From Geosiphon pyriformis (lineage: Eukaryota; Glomeromycota; Glomeromycetes; Archaeosporales; Geosiphonaceae): a stretch of DNA of 64,000 bases. Each line of letters begins with the position of its first letter. The stretch's first letter is position 1. The stretch covers positions 36,940 to 100,939 of the forward strand of contig JAAOMT010000620.1 of assembly GCA_016748015.1 (NCBI GenBank), written 5' to 3'. Shown one piece after another: positions 25,925-58,821 of the stretch. The notes under the pieces are model-generated. The model was given only the letters and a program-made list of their open reading frames with translations, was not told where the DNA came from and searched no databases. A program made the translations under genes and the position numbers.

Positions 25925-26392
25925 TTATGGTAACAAACGAGCCACTGAACAGAATAATGGAGCATTGGTGGATTTTTCTACAATTCTAACACTAAGAGCG
26001 GTACCAATGATAGAGTGTGGCGCCTTTACATGGGTTGTTATTGTGAATTTTATTCCTGATCCAACCGGACAACTTTGTCCTCCTCGCAAATGACTGCAAA
26101 AACTTTTACTAACAGAACCTATATCATCATTTCGAGCATTAGAAAATCCAGCAAAAATCGTGGCTGAGTCGATAGTTTTAGCTGCTATTCCAGTAGCAGT
26201 AATTTTTATTATTTCTCCAGCGGCAAAAGCTGCAGGTTCGATTGTTACAGCGATAAAATCGGGCTGAGGAACAGCATTGCATGGTACAAATAAAGGAGTA
26301 AAAGATTTTGAGGTAGAAGAATTTTGTGGAATAGCATTGATCATTGAGATCGTAACTAATAAAACAACAACAAAATAAAAATTTCGTTTCAT
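25925..26392 (-). CDS. Secreted ML-domain (MD-2-related lipid-recognition) protein
   Basis: Intact single-exon gene for 155 residues. Residues 1-20 form a signal peptide (Lys-Arg, hydrophobic VVVLLVTISM, cleavage after SMINA). The mature part has four cysteines at 38, 99, 108 and 148, enough for two disulfides, and an all-beta pattern of alternating hydrophobics. The arrangement and the IPQ..TPLF.PC N-terminus resemble the phosphatidylglycerol/phosphatidylinositol transfer protein-like (ML) proteins that are multicopy in Rhizophagus. Such proteins bind lipids or sterols outside the cell or in the endomembrane lumen; the ligand here is unknown. The ATG follows a short leader and a TATA-like box about 65 bp upstream. 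G+C is clearly above that of the flanks and there are no breaks, unlike every neighbouring gene. It is the best protein-coding gene of the window. Confidence 0.82.
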   Translation of the reverse strand: MKRNFYFVVVLLVTISMINAIPQNSSTSKSFTPLFVPCNAVPQPDFIAVTIEPAAFAAGEIIKITATGIAAKTIDSATIFAGFSNARNDDIGSVSKSFCSHLRGGQSCPVGSGIKFTITTHVKAPHSIIGTALSVRIVEKSTNAPLFCSVARLLP

Positions 26393-26451
26393 GGTTTCTT
26401 TTATCCTTTGAAGTTAACGATAATTTGAAATTTATCAGAGTAAAACATGAC

Positions 26452-27714: not shown

Positions 27715-27811
27715 CTCAATTTAACAAAGAATTTAAAAATGAAAATATAGTTAGGGAATATCAAAATTCTAATTTTTAGTTCTAGTCGATGTTAGATTTA
27801 ATTTTTTTATT

Positions 27812-29964: not shown

Positions 29965-30096
29965 TTACATAATAGAGCATTGTCCGGTACCGCTACCATC
30001 GTCTGGGTCACCGGTTGGTCCTTTAATAGAGCCGTTTCCAGGAGCAATTATTGATAAAGGATTGAATGAAGATTGATTGTTGGTTGTTGGTTGCAT
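29965..30096 (-). CDS. 43-residue peptide with C-terminal CaaX box (prenylated peptide candidate)
   Basis: A complete small gene. ATG at 30096 is the first ATG after an in-frame TAA near 30,166, and the frame stops at 29965-29967. The protein starts MQPTTNNQSSF, is rich in Gly, Pro, Asn, Ser and Asp, has no hydrophobic segment, and ends GTGQCSIM: Cys-Ser-Ile-Met is a textbook CaaX box for farnesylation, proteolysis and carboxymethylation. Short precursors with a CaaX end are the form of fungal a-factor-type mating pheromones; other small prenylated peptides are possible. G+C is about twice that of its surroundings, and the A-rich leader before the ATG (..AACTTAAAGAAA) is typical of expressed fungal genes. 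A TATA box lies about 120 bp upstream. There are no breaks. The pheromone role is only an inference from form, and no receptor or exporter gene is in the window. Confidence 0.6.
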   Translation of the reverse strand: MQPTTNNQSSFNPLSIIAPGNGSIKGPTGDPDDGSGTGQCSIM

Positions 30097-30216
30097 TTTC
30101 TTTAAGTTTTTTGATTGATTTACTTTGAATGTTGTTATAGTTTTTTTCTTTTCTTTTCTTTTCTTTTAGTTGTTTTAGTTTGATTGAATGAAAAGAAATT
30201 GGGAGAGCACAACCAA

Positions 30217-30223
30217 TTTTATA
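30217..30223 (-). promoter_or_regulatory. TATA box of the CaaX-peptide gene
   Basis: TATAAAA on the minus strand, about 120 bp before the start codon. It is followed by a pyrimidine-rich stretch (TCTCCCAATTTCTTTTC), a likely start of transcription, then an A/G tract (AAAAG repeated) and an A-rich leader. Confidence 0.5.
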
Positions 30224-30310
30224 GAAAAAATTCATAGCCTTCATATTAACACCTGTCATTAAACACAATGTAAATTGAAACAGAATGTTAAAAACCAAGA
30301 TTTTTGACAA

Positions 30311-31459
30311 TAACCGATATAATTTATTGTTCTATTTTAATTAATAATTCGGCAGACCCCCATTGTTAAGCTATCCAAACAATGTCTAAAATGCAAATAA
30401 TATTCAAAATTTAATTTAATTTAATCATTATCAGTGGAATAGAGCAGACGGAGCATTGTTTTTTGATATCATCTTAACTAGTACATTCATTTTCAAATTC
30501 AGCCATTAAGGAGATTTATTAAGTGTTTATGGGGTATCTGTGAATTAATTAACAATGCTAAAAACAGGTTTTTTTTAAGCATGTGGGACATTGTTGTACG
30601 AAGAATATATATACGAACAATGCTAAAAAGTATTACTCTAAAGTTACGATTATCCAATTTCTGTTAATAATTGTGCTATGGACAAATATTTCATGATTCA
30701 TGATTCATGATTCATGTTCCAAGGTTTATAATAGGGTATTGTTTTGAAGCAATACCTTTTATGCAAACTCATCGATTTTTGAGCTAGCCAATAAAATATT
30801 TCTAAGAAAATTTTTAAAAAATTAAATGAGGTTTGAAATTTCGATCTAATGAAAAACCTTAATAAATCACTCTATTGATTCAAGAAAAATTTTCTACATA
30901 ATTATTTTCCACTACTATGGGTAATTTTTTAAGTATGTTTGTAATAGTATTTTATTTTATATTTGACTACCACTTTGTGCTTGAATATCTGTTTTAGTTT
31001 GAAATAATTATTGGTAATTCTTAGCTATTTTTGGTTGCAAATGAGAATTGACTATAGTAAATAGAGCAAGCTCGGGAATATCCAAAGTTCAATTTACAGT
31101 TTATCAATTCCAAAGATATGTTTGCCTTGTTTATCCCTTAGAGGTTGCATAAAAATTACCAAGTTTTGAAACGTAATTTTGGTACACCCCATAAAGACCA
31201 AGGGCTTTTTTTGAATTATTTTGGTAAATCAAAGATTTTATTTATAAGATATTTTAATTAATCTGTTTCAAGTTTGCTACATTTGAAAATTAAAGAAACA
31301 ACTGAATATCTTTCTACATTAGTATTAAAAGATTTAAATATTGTGTCACTATTTTTATATACAATTAATTACTATTGAATAGTTTGAAGTTATGTCAACT
31401 TGAATTACAACTTAATTCCAGTTTGTCTGACTAAATAAATAATAAATTTTTAACTTTAC
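30311..31459. other. Spacer with small repeats
   Basis: No gene seen. It contains a 7-bp tandem repeat at 30691-30716, a 14-bp direct repeat AACAATGCTAAAAA at 30,551 and 30,616 with a hairpin (CATTGTT..AACAATG) between, and a 7-bp hairpin at about 30,733-30,756. Confidence 0.45.
30691..30716. repeat. 7-bp tandem repeat
   Basis: TCATGAT repeated 3.7 times without error. Confidence 0.85.
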
Positions 31460-52164: not shown

Positions 52165-55100
52165 CTATGCAGCTATATAAACTAACACCGATTCATTTAT
52201 ACCTAAAAAGAACAAGCAAGACTTACGAAAACCAAAATGAACACCTAAAGCATTAGTAATGCCAAGTAATCTAACCACCCCTGCAGAGAACCTTGAAGCC
52301 AAACCATGAACCAAGATGATGGCTGAACCATCTAACAAGATCAGTCTATTCTTCTCCATATACGCATGATACTTAGCACGAACTGACCAGACATCCTCCC
52401 TGAAAGCAAGACCAAGAGAGTGCACAAACTTGACAATCTCCAAAACAGCAATCTTGGGGTTGTGAAAGACGGAAACAGCTTTGCAAAACCACTCATTGAA
52501 AACAAAGTCCTTAAAAAGAGCCATGAACACAGAGAAATCAGAAACACTGAATGATAACAGTTGCAATATACCCAAAGAAGAATGAAAGGAACCAGAAAGT
52601 GCCTTCCAGAACTCTACATAAGAATCCAACAGCTGACGTTAAACAGACTCATCAACCTTGCAAGAGAACATATGATTTGACACCTCCACCTCACCACAAT
52701 ACAAGCACAACACACTAGGATAACGTCTATTATAGAGGCACTTTTGAACCACAACTGGCAGCTGATGGTGTAAAGACTTTATAAAGTAAGTATGCATACT
52801 GGACAAAGACCTGCTGGTAAAATCTGCAGCCATGTGTAAATCAGGATGCCATATCAATAATAAGCAGAGCCAATCAACCTCAGAAGACAAGCTGTCCACC
52901 AAAACTCCAGAACCAGAACCAACCTCCCATTGTACATGACAAATAGAATGATAAATATTATGAACAAAATGTCTCAAATTTCCAGAAACAATACCACCAT
53001 CAGCTGACAAGAAGTGCTCACTCAAGTAAGGGGGAAGATACCAATTGGAGAAAGAAACGGCATCAGCGATCATGTCAGCATGCTTGTTTCCTGAAACACC
53101 AGAATGACCTTTCACCTTGTGAAAGCTAACCCTCAACTTCTTATTGCAAATCATGTTGACAATATGACAACGTTCGACCCAACACTGATTATGATAATTG
53201 GGATACACTAGATCCAACTCCGACCTGCAAGCATTCAAAGCCAATTGACTATCTAAGAACAAACAAACAAAGCTTGATGAGGGAACACACTCTAGAGCCA
53301 AGGCAACAGCCTGCAATTCCACCAAAGTAAACAACATCAAACCCAATATACTAACCCCCAAACCCAAACCAATGTCCTCAAAAAAAACAGCAGTGCCAGC
53401 TTTACAGCCAACCATGCCAAGATTACTAAGAGACCCATCCGTATATACTGACAGGCTGCTAGCACCAGTTGCCAAGAGATGATCACAAACAAACACAAAT
53501 TCACCAGACTTAAGAATGTTTGAAGGACCACCATCACCCAAAACTAAAGACTGAGTGTGAGAAAATCCCACACTATTGAGAAACAAAACAGAATGTTTGA
53601 ACCACTCAGGAACTGGGCCACGGGGGTCCAATTTCTTCCACTGCTTGAAAATGTACCAATCATAGACAGCACTATGACAGTCACGAAGTTGATCCACAAA
53701 GGCAATACTATACTGCCAAAGAGAAGGGAGAAACCTGAGAAACCTTGACTCGCCCAGAATCTTAAACATAGGCACTTCACCATGAGACCAAAAAGAACTA
53801 ACTAAAGAGCCACCCAGAGACACATTGCAATCAAGAAAAACACAAACCATGTCTGTCAGAAAATTATTAGATGCACTGACATGAATACAAACAGGAGAAC
53901 TCAATAGATGAACAGGGCACCAACACAGAACTTGCAAGTCATGAGACCTGTAGAAAAACAAACGACTCAAGATACCACCAGAGTTTGCAAAACTGACAAA
54001 GGAAGCAATCTTGTTCTCAGATTGAACTTGAAAAAATGACTTTAAACCATAAAACGAAGGGTAATAAATTGCATCATTAGGGAAATCAAGCAGCAAACCA
54101 GACTTGAGCTTCAAACCTTTATGAATCAAAGCATCCCACTTGTTGTACATGCCAACAGAAATAAAACTGAACTGAGTTCTATAGCTGACTATTGGATGCA
54201 GAACTGCTAATACCAAATACAAGAACTGCTTATCTGTGACTGTCTTCTTCAACACCAGATTGGTGAAAAAGCGAATGTCCGAATGTGCCTTAACCAAGCT
54301 AGACTTCGAAAAATTTTTAGTCAATAGAAAGATGCCCAGATATCGGTGAGATTCCTCCTTTTTGGCAATAGAAATGGGTAAATCACTGATAGAAAGAAAG
54401 GGATTGCTAACTCTGCTATTGATAGGAATGACTACCGTTTTGTCATTATTAATAGAGATGTCATTGACACAAAAAAATTTACTAGTGACATTGAGAATAT
54501 GTTGAGTAGCCGTCTGACTGCTGCCAACCCAAATCGTATCATCAACAAAAACACCAGTGGCAAAAAAAGAAGAAAACCCAGCCTGGGATTTGGAACAATC
54601 ATTCTTGGAAACAAAGTGAGAATTCAATCTATACCTACATACACTCTCCTGTCTTTTGACTTCACACAAAAGAGAGTCATAAAATATGCGTCAGAGAAGA
54701 GAAGAGAAGACCTCTTCCTGGTCCAAACTATCATGCACATGATAACCACTTGTCAATCCAAAATCAGTCATGACTTGATTGGTACAATCCCTATAAATAC
54801 TGCCAAAAAACCGAATAAATTTGCTACATATCTTAATCCTGACCAAATTCTTTTCGAGATGCTCCCAGCCAACCGAGTTATACGCCTTTTACATGTTCTG
54901 TAGAACCAGCCAGAGCTTCTTGTTTTTTTCCAAAGCATCTTCGACTACCGAACCAATTGCAAAAATAGGAGACTGGATTGTTGTACTTTTCAGAACCAAA
55001 AAATTGGCCCCCCGAAGCACATCAAAAGTACTGCATGCCAAAGAAATCCTGTCAGAAAGGATCTTAGAAAGAATCTTGTGAGCCGTTTTGATTAAAGCAA

Positions 55101-56853
55101 TAGGACGTGTGTTCGTCAAAACACCTTCCCACTTATAAGGTTTGGGAATCATTGAGACCTATGCTTCCTTCCAAGAGCTGGGCACTAATTCACTAAACAA
55201 ACAAGAGTTCAAGAGCACCAACAACATATCTAAAACTGACCTATCACAATGTTTCCAAAGCTCATTTGAAATACCTGACAAACCAGCCGCTTTACCATCC
55301 GGAAGATCAGAAACCACTTCAAAGAACTTATCATACTCAATCAAACACATGACACCAGAAAAAGCTTCATCAAAAACATACTCTAGCAGCCAATATTGAA
55401 GGCGCCAATCATCCGAGACATTATCAATTACCCAACGTTTCCTAGTCCAACTTTTTATGATCGCATCCACTTTGGACTTGACCTGCTCAGGTTCTAAAAT
55501 CAAATTATCATCAACTACCAAATAATCCAGCACAACCTTACAAAATGGGTGCTCCAACACACTTCTTATTGTATGATCTTTATCTACTTCAAAGCTTTCC
55601 ATTCTCTTGTCTATTGCAGACTTGATGTTAGCATCTTTAGTACTCTGAAATTCAATGAGCTTGAATGCCCGATAAGATTTTCTGACACCAAAAAGAGCAG
55701 AACAAACATAATCAGATTCTACACCAGAGTCCACCAGATCCTGAATGACCAAAGCACTGACACTGTCCAGAGAAGCCCAACACTTCATGAAAGAAGCAAA
55801 ATCTACAGCACACCTTACACGAAATGCCTTAATAATTTTTGAAACCAGAAGCTCCAACTTGTGAAACCTTGAAAACTCTTTGGTAAAGACATCATTAAAT
55901 TTCTTGAACCACTTTTTCTTGAACACTTTATTAGCCGAAAGAACCATTATCTTGCAAACAACATCCCACATTACATCCAAATCCGAAAACCCCACAGAAA
56001 CAGTAAACTCATCTGAGAACATTGTTGCATTAGCCAACGTGGCACACTTAAAATTGATCCATATACTCTCATCTGTACTCTTGAAATTGAACTTCCATCT
56101 GTCTCTGTTTGCTTGTTTGCGAAAAAAGTTCAATTGCATATCCAAAAGTCTACCTAGACTCAAAGACACCAAAACAGCTTGATGATCTGTGTCAAAATGC
56201 TCACTAACACCCGAAACATTATGATGTACCATCACATTGACCAGATTTGGAGAGACAAACACGTAATCAATCATCCTCTTGACATCTCTAGAATTCTCCC
56301 AAGTGGGCATTTTCACAGCCAGGCTTCCAACCAAAGAATTAATCAATCTCAAATCAAGGCACTTCTTGAAACTCGCACACTTACGAGAGCCGTTTTTATT
56401 AAAATCGCCGCTGAGGATAACAAAGGAAGACTCGTTAACAGCTTTTGCAATGATAGAGTTGATTTTGCCTGCCTGAAAGAACCAGACTGCTGAAGAAGCA
56501 CCAGCGTAAAGTTCCAAAATTGACACAGATAGCTTATTCTTAAAAAGTAACTTGATAGACATGAGCCAACCTGGCACCTCAGACACCTTGCACATATGTT
56601 TCGCCAAAAAAAAGTTCATAACTACCACCACACCAGCACCCAGATACCCAGAATCCAAGCCAGTAGTAAACACCCAAACTCCATCAAACTTGTTAATAAT
56701 TCAGGGTCAAACCTTATCCTTTAACTTAATTTCAGTAAAAATAGAGATTGAATTGTCTATGTTCTTATGCCAATGAATGACATCACTCTGCTTCACAGGG
56801 TTGTTTATTCTCCTAACATTGCATATAGCAACTTTCCATATTAATTCACTCAT
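52165..56853 (-). pseudogene. LINE ORF2: endonuclease, reverse transcriptase, RNase H, six stops
   Basis: 1562 codons in a single frame from ATG 56853. The AP-type endonuclease has FTEIKL (catalytic Glu), LSGDFN at about 148-152 and DTDHQA at about 221-226. The reverse transcriptase spans about 480-900, with motif A LVLQNM-stop-KAYNSV near 650 (the catalytic Asp reads Asn) and FVDD at 769-771. RNase H has YTDGS at about 1139, ELQAVALALE, FLDSQLAL and HKVKGHSG..HADMIAD, so all four acidic residues and the His are present. The C-terminal zinc knuckle is CLYCx7Hx3C near 1383, and the ORF ends in YIAA. Stops: TGA at 56707 and 56701, a stop at 55159, TAA at 54889, TGA at 54691 and TAA at 52639. 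At least three probably replace Trp. No frameshifts. The element cannot encode an active RT. Confidence 0.88.
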
Positions 56854-58655
56854 TGGGAGAGGGATTGGAAGTTCGCACTACTAGCCAAAACCAGACTATT
56901 GAAACAAGTGGACAAGCTCAACACAGATTTGGAGAGGCCTTCCAACATATTTTCTAACTTGACAACATGGGGGGATGTAGACAAGTCCACAATTGTGGCA
57001 GACTTATGGCCATTGGCCATACTCAAGTCCATTTTCACTGTCACATTACTTTCCAAATTCTGTGGTGGGAAAGTCACTGGCAGCTGGCATCCATGACCAG
57101 GCTGGGGAACCACCAGCACGAGCAACTTTAATCTCTTAGTCAACTTATCAATTTGTCCTGCAAGACTGACAAGACCATTCTCAATATTAACCAATCTCTT
57201 TTTTAGATCTTTTGCAACAGGAGGGGTAGATTTACCATCAATGACGAAACCAAAATGTGTCTTACTACCAGAAAGGGAGAGAGCAGAGGAAGCACCAATC
57301 ACTGACACCCAAATTTTACCACCAAAAGCCAAAGGACGAGAAATAGGCACAGATTTCTTTGCATAAATTTTCGCCAATCTGGATTGGTCCTGAACCGAAA
57401 AGGAAGCCTTTCTGCCTCCTGCAATCCCAGCATCTTTGACTGATCTACAACTAAGTGAAGTATGACCAAAATTCTTACAAACCACACATGAAGCCAAAAA
57501 AAGATAAGACCAACAGAGACCAAAGCCTTTTATAACTGGGGTTGTTGCCATTGTATTAACTAATTCCACTTCTGAGCTAAAACACACAGTGGCACAGCAG
57601 GTGCGAGAATAACTGATGGGATTGCAATCAATGAAGCAGGTTTTTCCACCAATAGAACCAATAAAATCTCACAAATCATAAGCAGTGGTTCCCATAGGGA
57701 GAGTATATAACAAAGCTCTAAAATTATCCCTGGCATCCCATGATTGTTTGTTGATGTTAGTCCTGACTACCCGAACCATGTCTTTTCCAATAAGGATAGA
57801 CTACTTAGAGGCTAAAAAATCAGCCTGGTCTTGATCTTCTAATTCAATGATCACTTTTTGCCATAAACCCACCAACTGCATTTTGATCGACTTAATGATG
57901 CCAAATTCAGCCACAGTTGCACACACAGCCTCCAAAGATGTTTCCACAGGAATTTCTTTTAGCACAATTGCTCGATTTGTACAATTGTTGACAGGGCGCT
58001 TAAGATTGGTGTTTACTACAATACCATGGTCATTAGCCAGATTCACCACAGTCATCATCACCTCTTCAGAAGTGAACATAGTCCAAATAATTCCACCAAA
58101 TTTTGAGGGAGTAGAAACCCCCCCAAAACCATTCACACCAGAGAAAAGTTTTCTGACAAAATGTAGTTTTTCCTGTGATGATTTTCCAGAAACAGCCACA
58201 AGATCAATATCCAAAGCAAAGGATTTACGAACAGAAATTTGAACAGAAGATTTAAGCAGGAGAGGTGGTAGAAGGAGGATAGAATCATCTAAAACATCAT
58301 TATCATCATTGCTTTTTCTGCCGAAATTAATAGTATCTAGAGGCTTTCCAAGAACACGCTTGGTAACAATTCTCTTGGGACCTTTGGGTGTTGCCTCAGT
58401 GTTATCACCTCCAGACTCTCCTTTACTTTCAAGCTGAAAACTTGTTTTTTCAATCAGATATTCTTCCTCCATATCAACACTTTCTGACTCAGTAGTATTT
58501 CCACTCTCATGCCCAACCAAATTGCCAAAGATGCCACCTGTAGAGACACCAACCATCTTGACAGGTTTTTTCAACAACCCACTCTTGCGTTTCTTCTTGG
58601 AAGAGGAATCGACTACAGCTGTACCAAAAAGCAATTTTTTCTTGGACCCCTTCAT
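56850..58655 (-). pseudogene. LINE ORF1 (nucleic-acid-binding, CCHC), two stops
   Basis: From ATG at 58655 (frame open further up to about 58,748) to TGA at 56850: 601 codons in one frame. The N-terminal third is Lys/Ser-rich and acidic (MKGSKKKLLFG, KKKRKSGLLKKP). The middle contains a fold typical of LINE ORF1 proteins (VVNTNLKRP, RAIVLKEIPVETSLEAVCA, like an RRM). A zinc knuckle CVVCKNFGHTSLSC (Cx2Cx4Hx4C) lies at about residue 390-403. A Leu-rich C-terminal helix follows (LVNIENGLVSLAGQIDKL). Two stops interrupt it: TAG at 57801-57803 and TGA near 57,627. Its own TGA overlaps the ATG of ORF2 (ATGA). The protein would coat the element RNA. Confidence 0.82.
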
Positions 58656-58821
58656 AACAGAAATGCCACCGCTGACAGCAGCTTTGTATTCAAACAAAAA
58701 CAGTTTTGAAGTATCTAACTGAATAGTGACAAAAAATACGAGAAACAAAAAACTTCTTTCAAAATATGCACTTTTTCAGGACTTTGGGAAATAGGAGAAA
58801 AAGAAGTTTTTTTTTTTTTTT

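Follow-up and report, generated by a model that had tools for sequence, protein, structure and literature searches.

The window, a stretch of 64,000 nt of the Geosiphon pyriformis genome (contig C394, positions 36940-100939), carries on its minus strand a mini-gene whose features are collected in Table 1. The frame runs without interruption from ATG to TAA and its product is the 43-aa peptide MQPTTNNQSSFNPLSIIAPGNGSIKGPTGDPDDGSGTGQCSIM, so that the preliminary description was correct both in claiming an intact 43-residue frame ending in Cys-Ser-Ile-Met and in placing a TATA box before it. The same description held the G+C content to be twice that of the surroundings; the enrichment is present but the factor is not, as the ORF has 42.4% G+C compared to 27.2% in the 300 nt on each side and 26.5% in the 5 kb on each side, a 1.6-fold difference. 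Its reference to a gene desert holds locally, since between positions 27720 and 38133 the sole other stop-to-stop frame of at least 80 aa (30023-30331, minus strand) overlaps the mini-gene. Elsewhere in the window, the long minus-strand frames at 52165-58775 (683, 513, 324 and 272 aa; G+C 34-42%) look like a LINE-type retroelement by eye, and a 162-aa frame at 25925-26413, also on the minus strand, has a signal-like N-terminus and encodes what we take to be a relative in appearance of ML/MD-2 lipid-recognition proteins.

Table 1. Features of the mini-gene and its promoter, numbered from the first nucleotide of the window
Feature	Position	Strand	Remarks
Mini-gene, one open frame	29965..30096	-	43-aa peptide, identical in 24 of 33 intact copies including the window copy
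CaaX box codons (Cys-Ser-Ile-Met)	29968..29979	-	followed by TAA (29965-29967); in 33 of 33 intact copies
Putative mature region, residues 22-40, GSIKGPTGDPDDGSGTGQC	29977..30033	-	residues 19-43 constant in 31 of 33 copies
TATA box (TATAAAA)	30217..30223	-	127 nt upstream of the ATG, no ATG in between
Inverted pair CATTGTT-N10-AACAATG	30361..30384	-	promoter; candidate HMG-box-type element (hypothetical)

In size (43 aa, below 100 aa) and in its CaaX end the product has the form of an a-factor-type precursor. The N-terminus, MQPTTNNQSSFNP, is hydrophilic, with a mean Kyte-Doolittle value of -1.07 over residues 1-15, and the most hydrophobic 11-mer of the whole peptide reaches 1.05 on the same scale, so that judged by hydropathy there is no evident signal peptide in the precursor. 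The N-terminal cut before residue 22 that delimits the putative mature region is a guess, placed after the model of yeast a-factor. A Pfam search with the 43-aa peptide gave no match, and no relatives of it were found in the viral and prokaryote collections.

A six-frame search over the assembly to which the window belongs (124.7 Mb in 406 contigs) returned 37 places including the window, and the DNA of all 36 others was examined. An intact 43-codon ORF was present in 33 of these places, the exceptions being L033-L036; a one-off chance ORF is ruled out by this number, and multicopy relatives, which the preliminary description had named as something to look for, are present. Every intact copy encodes 43 aa and ends in CSIM, despite synonymous changes in the codons for C, S and I. 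The 33 ORFs correspond to 29 DNA sequences and 8 peptides, with the exact same peptide encoded in 24 copies by 21 distinct DNA sequences. They are spread over 12 contigs: C380 carries eleven copies on the same strand in two groups (889-901 kb and 949-964 kb), C241 five copies on both strands and C216 another five, with single copies or small groups on the others. On C380 and C241 the exact peptide is encoded in 16 of 16 copies. Between copies that share this peptide the mean difference is 11.1 of 132 nt and the largest 22, and 3 of 276 pairs have identical ORF DNA. The window copy differs by 13-18 nt from 22 of the other 23 such copies and by 1 nt from the remaining one; its nearest relative is L013 on C160, and the flanks of the two are 98% identical over 396 columns. 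In the C380 stretches, where frames of at least 75 aa were inspected by eye, the mini-gene was the only recurring ORF noticed. Kinase fragments occur in the window and in the C380 stretches, presumably of a type known from Rhizophagus.

Pairwise comparison of the 33 copies gave mean differences of 0.387 at synonymous sites (maximum 0.73) and 0.017 at non-synonymous sites, a pN/pS of 0.044. As pairwise comparison counts shared ancestry repeatedly, a quick tree was built from the flanks alone (300 nt upstream plus 220 nt downstream; 519 of 852 columns retained) and the changes in codons 2-43 were mapped onto it by parsimony. This yielded 144 synonymous versus 24 non-synonymous changes over 30 synonymous and 96 non-synonymous sites (binomial P ~2e-64), an omega of ~0.05 with a slight lean to low values due to the resolution of parsimony ties as no change and then as synonymous. 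Fourteen amino-acid differences are concentrated in two copies, L031 (6) and L032 (8), which are also the exceptions to the constancy of residues 19-43; the seven other variant copies are changed solely at residues 7, 10, 15, 16 and 18. Within the ORF, 20-nt bins have column identities of 0.85-0.95; from -170 to -71 the values are 0.71-0.79, and downstream of the ORF they stay at or below 0.66 with one bin at 0.70.

Because a protein search may favour intact copies, we also searched the assembly with promoter DNA, independently of the peptide. The query was the L001 promoter, a single copy, so nearer kin were reached best and six of the 33 intact copies were missed. Matched against the places of the peptide search, the 32 places found comprise 27 with an intact ORF and five decayed ones (C353:140034, C394:182215, C216:39605, C318:992948 and C83:322584); two promoter matches that had no counterpart in the peptide search turned out to be a remnant and a pseudogene and added no new peptides. 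Copies of the mini-gene do decay, and the intact ones were retained. The 43-aa peptide is under strong purifying selection within this genome. The preliminary description had read selection from the preservation of the frame, a weak inference on a single window; the family data bear on it directly, through the omega value and the universal CSIM end.

The promoter is conserved too. In 31 of the 33 copies a TATAAAA stands 103-147 nt before the ATG, and 29 of these have no other ATG between the two. With this arrangement, and with no second recurring gene noticed in the C380 stretches, the option of an exon of a longer gene was discarded. The exact inverted pair CATTGTT-N10/11-AACAATG is present in 18 of the 33 copies, starting at varying positions from -193 to -308. 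AACAATG or its complement is found 77 times in the 500-nt upstream regions of the 33 copies and twice in their 500-nt downstream regions; as the copies share ancestry, the 77 are not independent events. The density in the whole window is 0.16 per 500 nt. Genome-wide there are 34 exact pairs, 19 of them at mini-gene copies (one decayed) and 15 elsewhere, compared to 5 for a reversed-pattern control, and on account of those 15 other places a regulatory role for the pair is hypothetical. AACAATG is, we assume, the core site of HMG-box proteins, and the HMG_box profile gave 118 matches in the genome (150 of 153 candidates scored). PMC7490403 cites a paper on the MATA-HMG genes of an arbuscular mycorrhizal (AM) fungus whose title calls their diversification extreme.

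Two further observations concern these elements. Most of the 15 pairs outside the family (e.g. C75:217980, C301:311190 and C406:158493) share another spacer, like CATTGTTCAGCAATATAGAACAATG, and this second set is probably an unrelated repeat element. Just upstream of the promoter in the window, positions 30452-30624 hold imperfect inverted repeats with the ends AGCATTGTT and AACAATGCT, possibly a small mobile element or further HMG-type sites.

A Ste3-like receptor, likewise suggested for search in the preliminary description, is present in the genome. The STE3 profile (PF02076) gave two exon matches belonging to one gene, C303:334886-335808, and matched none of 14 prokaryote controls; a three-exon model joined by hand (L037, 526 aa) covers the whole profile (1-292 of 292, E 3.1e-70). 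This is the one intact STE3 gene detected in the assembly. In a PDB search the model had weak matches to animal GPCRs (five sequences, best E 0.088). The STE2 profile had no match on the assembly, and its control likewise matched nowhere, which makes that search uninformative on absence.

Candidates for the enzymes of CaaX processing were found as well. The Prenyltrans (beta) profile gave 11 matches at three places, with a model that also matches 3 of the 14 prokaryote controls; the pieces on C320 have farnesyltransferase beta as their nearest PDB entry (best E 9e-54), compared to E 6e-17 for the best PDB sequence named geranylgeranyltransferase I alone. A peptidase on C306 is a relative of Ste24/ZMPSTE24 (best PDB E 7e-54; Ste24p 5e-47), its M48 model also matching 10 of the 14 controls. 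The ICMT family is matched on C80 (E 3e-26), on C282 and weakly on C300, where the match contains stops, and as the model matches 6 of the 14 controls as well, the ICMT assignment is loose. By sequence likeness, the genome holds a farnesyltransferase beta subunit, a Ste24-type CAAX protease and matches to the ICMT family.

The receptor stands apart from the family. None of the 37 places of the peptide search or the 32 of the promoter search is on the STE3 contig, by which a receptor-linked pheromone locus is ruled out, and in the 3.9 kb upstream of STE3 there is a single AACAATG, at -3.4 kb, and no CATTGTT/AACAATG pair. Within C303:331000-350400, STE3 is accompanied by three HMG-box matches (341623, 345623 and 348791), the first of them at a distance of 5.8 kb, and a fourth HMG-like frame, seen by eye, lies among these at 343680-344283. 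A figure computed after this linkage had been noticed puts 1.1% of the genome within 6.5 kb of a listed HMG match. The neighbourhood may be a mating-type-like region. Separately, the copy L013 on C160 (in L053, C160:32000-46544) is 12.7 kb from an HMG-box gene and is the only one of the 33 within 70 kb of an HMG match, among the matches listed.

We consider it likely that the mini-gene belongs to a set of about 33 genes encoding the precursor of a CaaX (a-factor-type) lipopeptide pheromone that is sensed by STE3. This explanation is preferred because the family is multicopy, strongly constrained and CaaX-ended, in a genome that also has the receptor and in which processing enzymes of three kinds are matched. 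The suggestion of a pheromone-like or otherwise prenylated signalling peptide, made on the window alone, is strengthened by the 33-copy family, the purifying selection and STE3. The copies, if transcribed, would yield a precursor farnesylated on Cys40 of its CSIM end; the SIM tripeptide would then be cut off by the CAAX protease and the Cys carboxymethylated, and the pro-region would be trimmed from the N-terminal side, perhaps near residue 21. The product would be a Gly/Asp-rich lipopeptide of ~19 residues, exported by a Ste6-type ABC transporter and sensed by the genome's STE3 receptor, possibly in mating. A high copy number would raise the peptide dose, and control of the copies may lie with HMG-box transcription factors acting on their AACAATG/CATTGTT sites. 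Against the pheromone reading stand the hydrophilic N-terminus, a putative mature part as long as ~19 residues, the 6 and 8 changes carried by L031 and L032, and the lack of linkage to STE3. Moreover, with one receptor detected and a single type of peptide, mating-type specificity is not evident.

The closest known parallel is yeast a-factor, the STE3 ligand encoded by MFA1 and MFA2, which likewise derives from a short precursor with a CaaX end and no signal peptide; its mature form is described as YIIKGVFWDPAC(S-farnesyl)OCH3 (PMC7035247). In a register from Met1 with the MFA1 precursor sequence assumed here, our peptide has 11 matches (M1, Q2, P3, T5, S15, N21, I24, K25, G26, D30 and P31), the matched stretches including MQP-T, N21 and IKGxxxDP (residues 24-31). 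That level was reached by 4 of 200,000 shuffles in register and by 5 of 40,000 at any offset, with M1 and CSIM preserved in the shuffles, for a likeness that had been noticed before the test and with S. cerevisiae as the sole comparison species. For MFA2, likewise with an assumed precursor sequence, there were 5 matches in register (45,235 of 200,000 shuffles) and 9 at the best offset (483 of 40,000), and for mature yeast a-factor alone 5 matches (416 of 100,000). Many other ascomycete a-factors are not known to carry this motif. Unlike yeast a-factor, the Geosiphon peptide is longer past this motif and its putative mature part has no aromatic residue. The likeness to MFA1 is suggestive, a lead that may reflect descent, convergence or luck. 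A fuller proposal, in which the peptide shares an ancestral precursor with yeast a-factor and is, once farnesylated, the missing ligand of the AM-fungal STE3, driven by mating-type-like HMG regulators with some of their genes beside STE3, appears improbable to us; common ancestry would mean that the a-factor/STE3 pair predates Dikarya.

Other fungi offer looser parallels. According to PMC10569646, ascomycete a-factors strictly share a single trait, a CAAX/CPAX end on a very short protein; the criteria used there for Leotiomycetes were a length of at most 100 aa, such an end and conservation among relatives, CSIM is among the a-factor ends in a few species, and the CaaX end is not confined to pheromones. 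The Leotiomycetes a-factors of that study have 45-64 aa, compared to 43 aa here, are CaaX-ended as well and resemble our peptide in the Ser/Thr of their N-terminal part, which make up 5 of the first 15 residues in Geosiphon (PMC10569646). Our peptide differs from the a-factors of filamentous ascomycetes (Leotiomycetes, Sordariomycetes) in having no Gly-Tyr motif near the CaaX box and in its 33 copies, and we do not claim homology to them. For Ceratocystidaceae a-pheromones, PMC13037118 used a hydrophobic N-terminus without signal peptide as a criterion, whereas residues 1-15 average -1.07 here; mature peptides were taken there to have 7-12 residues, and the a-pheromone genes are described as varying in number and location. 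Basidiomycete genomes likewise have more than one precursor gene together with STE3-type receptors, and in the red-yeast pheromone genes RHA2.A1 only synonymous changes are described (PMC3236058). However, basidiomycete precursors lie in mating-type regions beside the receptor, whereas here one peptide is encoded on 12 contigs and the receptor gene lies on another. Mucoralean trisporoids are also mating pheromones of a basal lineage, called close to Rhizophagus in PMC3834313; they are small apocarotenoids, whereas the candidate here is a peptide.

Among the alternatives, a farnesylated secreted signal outside mating, serving self-recognition and hyphal fusion or communication with the plant or bacterial partner, would fit the same gene family and the same evidence of selection, and one detected receptor with one peptide type would suit self-signalling. 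A putative a-factor not expressed according to mating type, with a role called unclear, is described for three Leotiomycetes (PMC10569646). The genome nonetheless has STE3, and this receptor is best known for binding mating pheromone, so that a signal unconnected with mating seems unlikely. That the micropeptide is prenylated but remains inside, attached to the membranes of the cell and without any export, is very unlikely in our judgement: a CaaX box by itself predicts prenylation and membrane attachment and not secretion, which leaves export as an assumption of the pheromone reading, but some 33 copies would better suit a secreted, dose-limited signal, the restriction of the seven variants to residues 7-18 with 19-43 fixed has the look of a processed precursor, and an STE3 without a known ligand is present. 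That the copies are alike through recency or homogenisation, without selection on the peptide, has hardly any probability left, as the clusters on C380, C241 and C216, the recent pairs such as the window copy and L013 and the few identical-DNA pairs are outweighed by the nucleotide differences among identical-peptide copies, by the coexistence of decayed copies with stops and by the 144:24 ratio, given that conversion would homogenise synonymous and non-synonymous sites alike.

AM fungi have long been called ancient asexuals; whether and how they mate is a long-standing question, and their sexual cycle is unproven. Halary et al. (2013; PMC3834313) describe, for AM fungi, a single copy of STE3 and an orthologue of STE6 but found no peptide pheromone gene, with a method that also missed the pheromone genes of Ustilago maydis, and they urge new approaches. 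In a 2020 study, mating-related genes are described as rising when two R. irregularis isolates coexist, without upregulation of mating-pheromone genes (PMC7490403). PMC6339444 and PMC8778642, as far as examined, report no CaaX pheromone of AM fungi, nor did such a report appear in the literature covered by our search (titles, abstracts and some main text, mostly of open-access papers). Three stretches of the peptide, sought in the main text of the papers covered, did not occur there.

On sequence grounds, an AM fungus as the host is supported indirectly, by the large HMG-box set, the one STE3 gene, the AT-rich DNA and the kinase fragments. The AML2 small-subunit primer site had 0 exact matches in the assembly, which says little because ribosomal DNA may be missing from it, and an R. 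irregularis TEF primer had 0 matches within 2 mismatches, a sign that the genome is not R. irregularis itself unless this stretch is missing. The pheromone reading would be unaffected if the host were a non-AM fungus, with its novelty lower. The peptide family is a strong candidate for the pheromone that has been sought and not found in AM fungi. It supplies a candidate peptide that can be synthesized, marker genes for RNA-seq of co-cultures and a candidate promoter element; if the pheromone reading were confirmed, receptor assays and the induction of a mating response would become directly testable in AM fungi.
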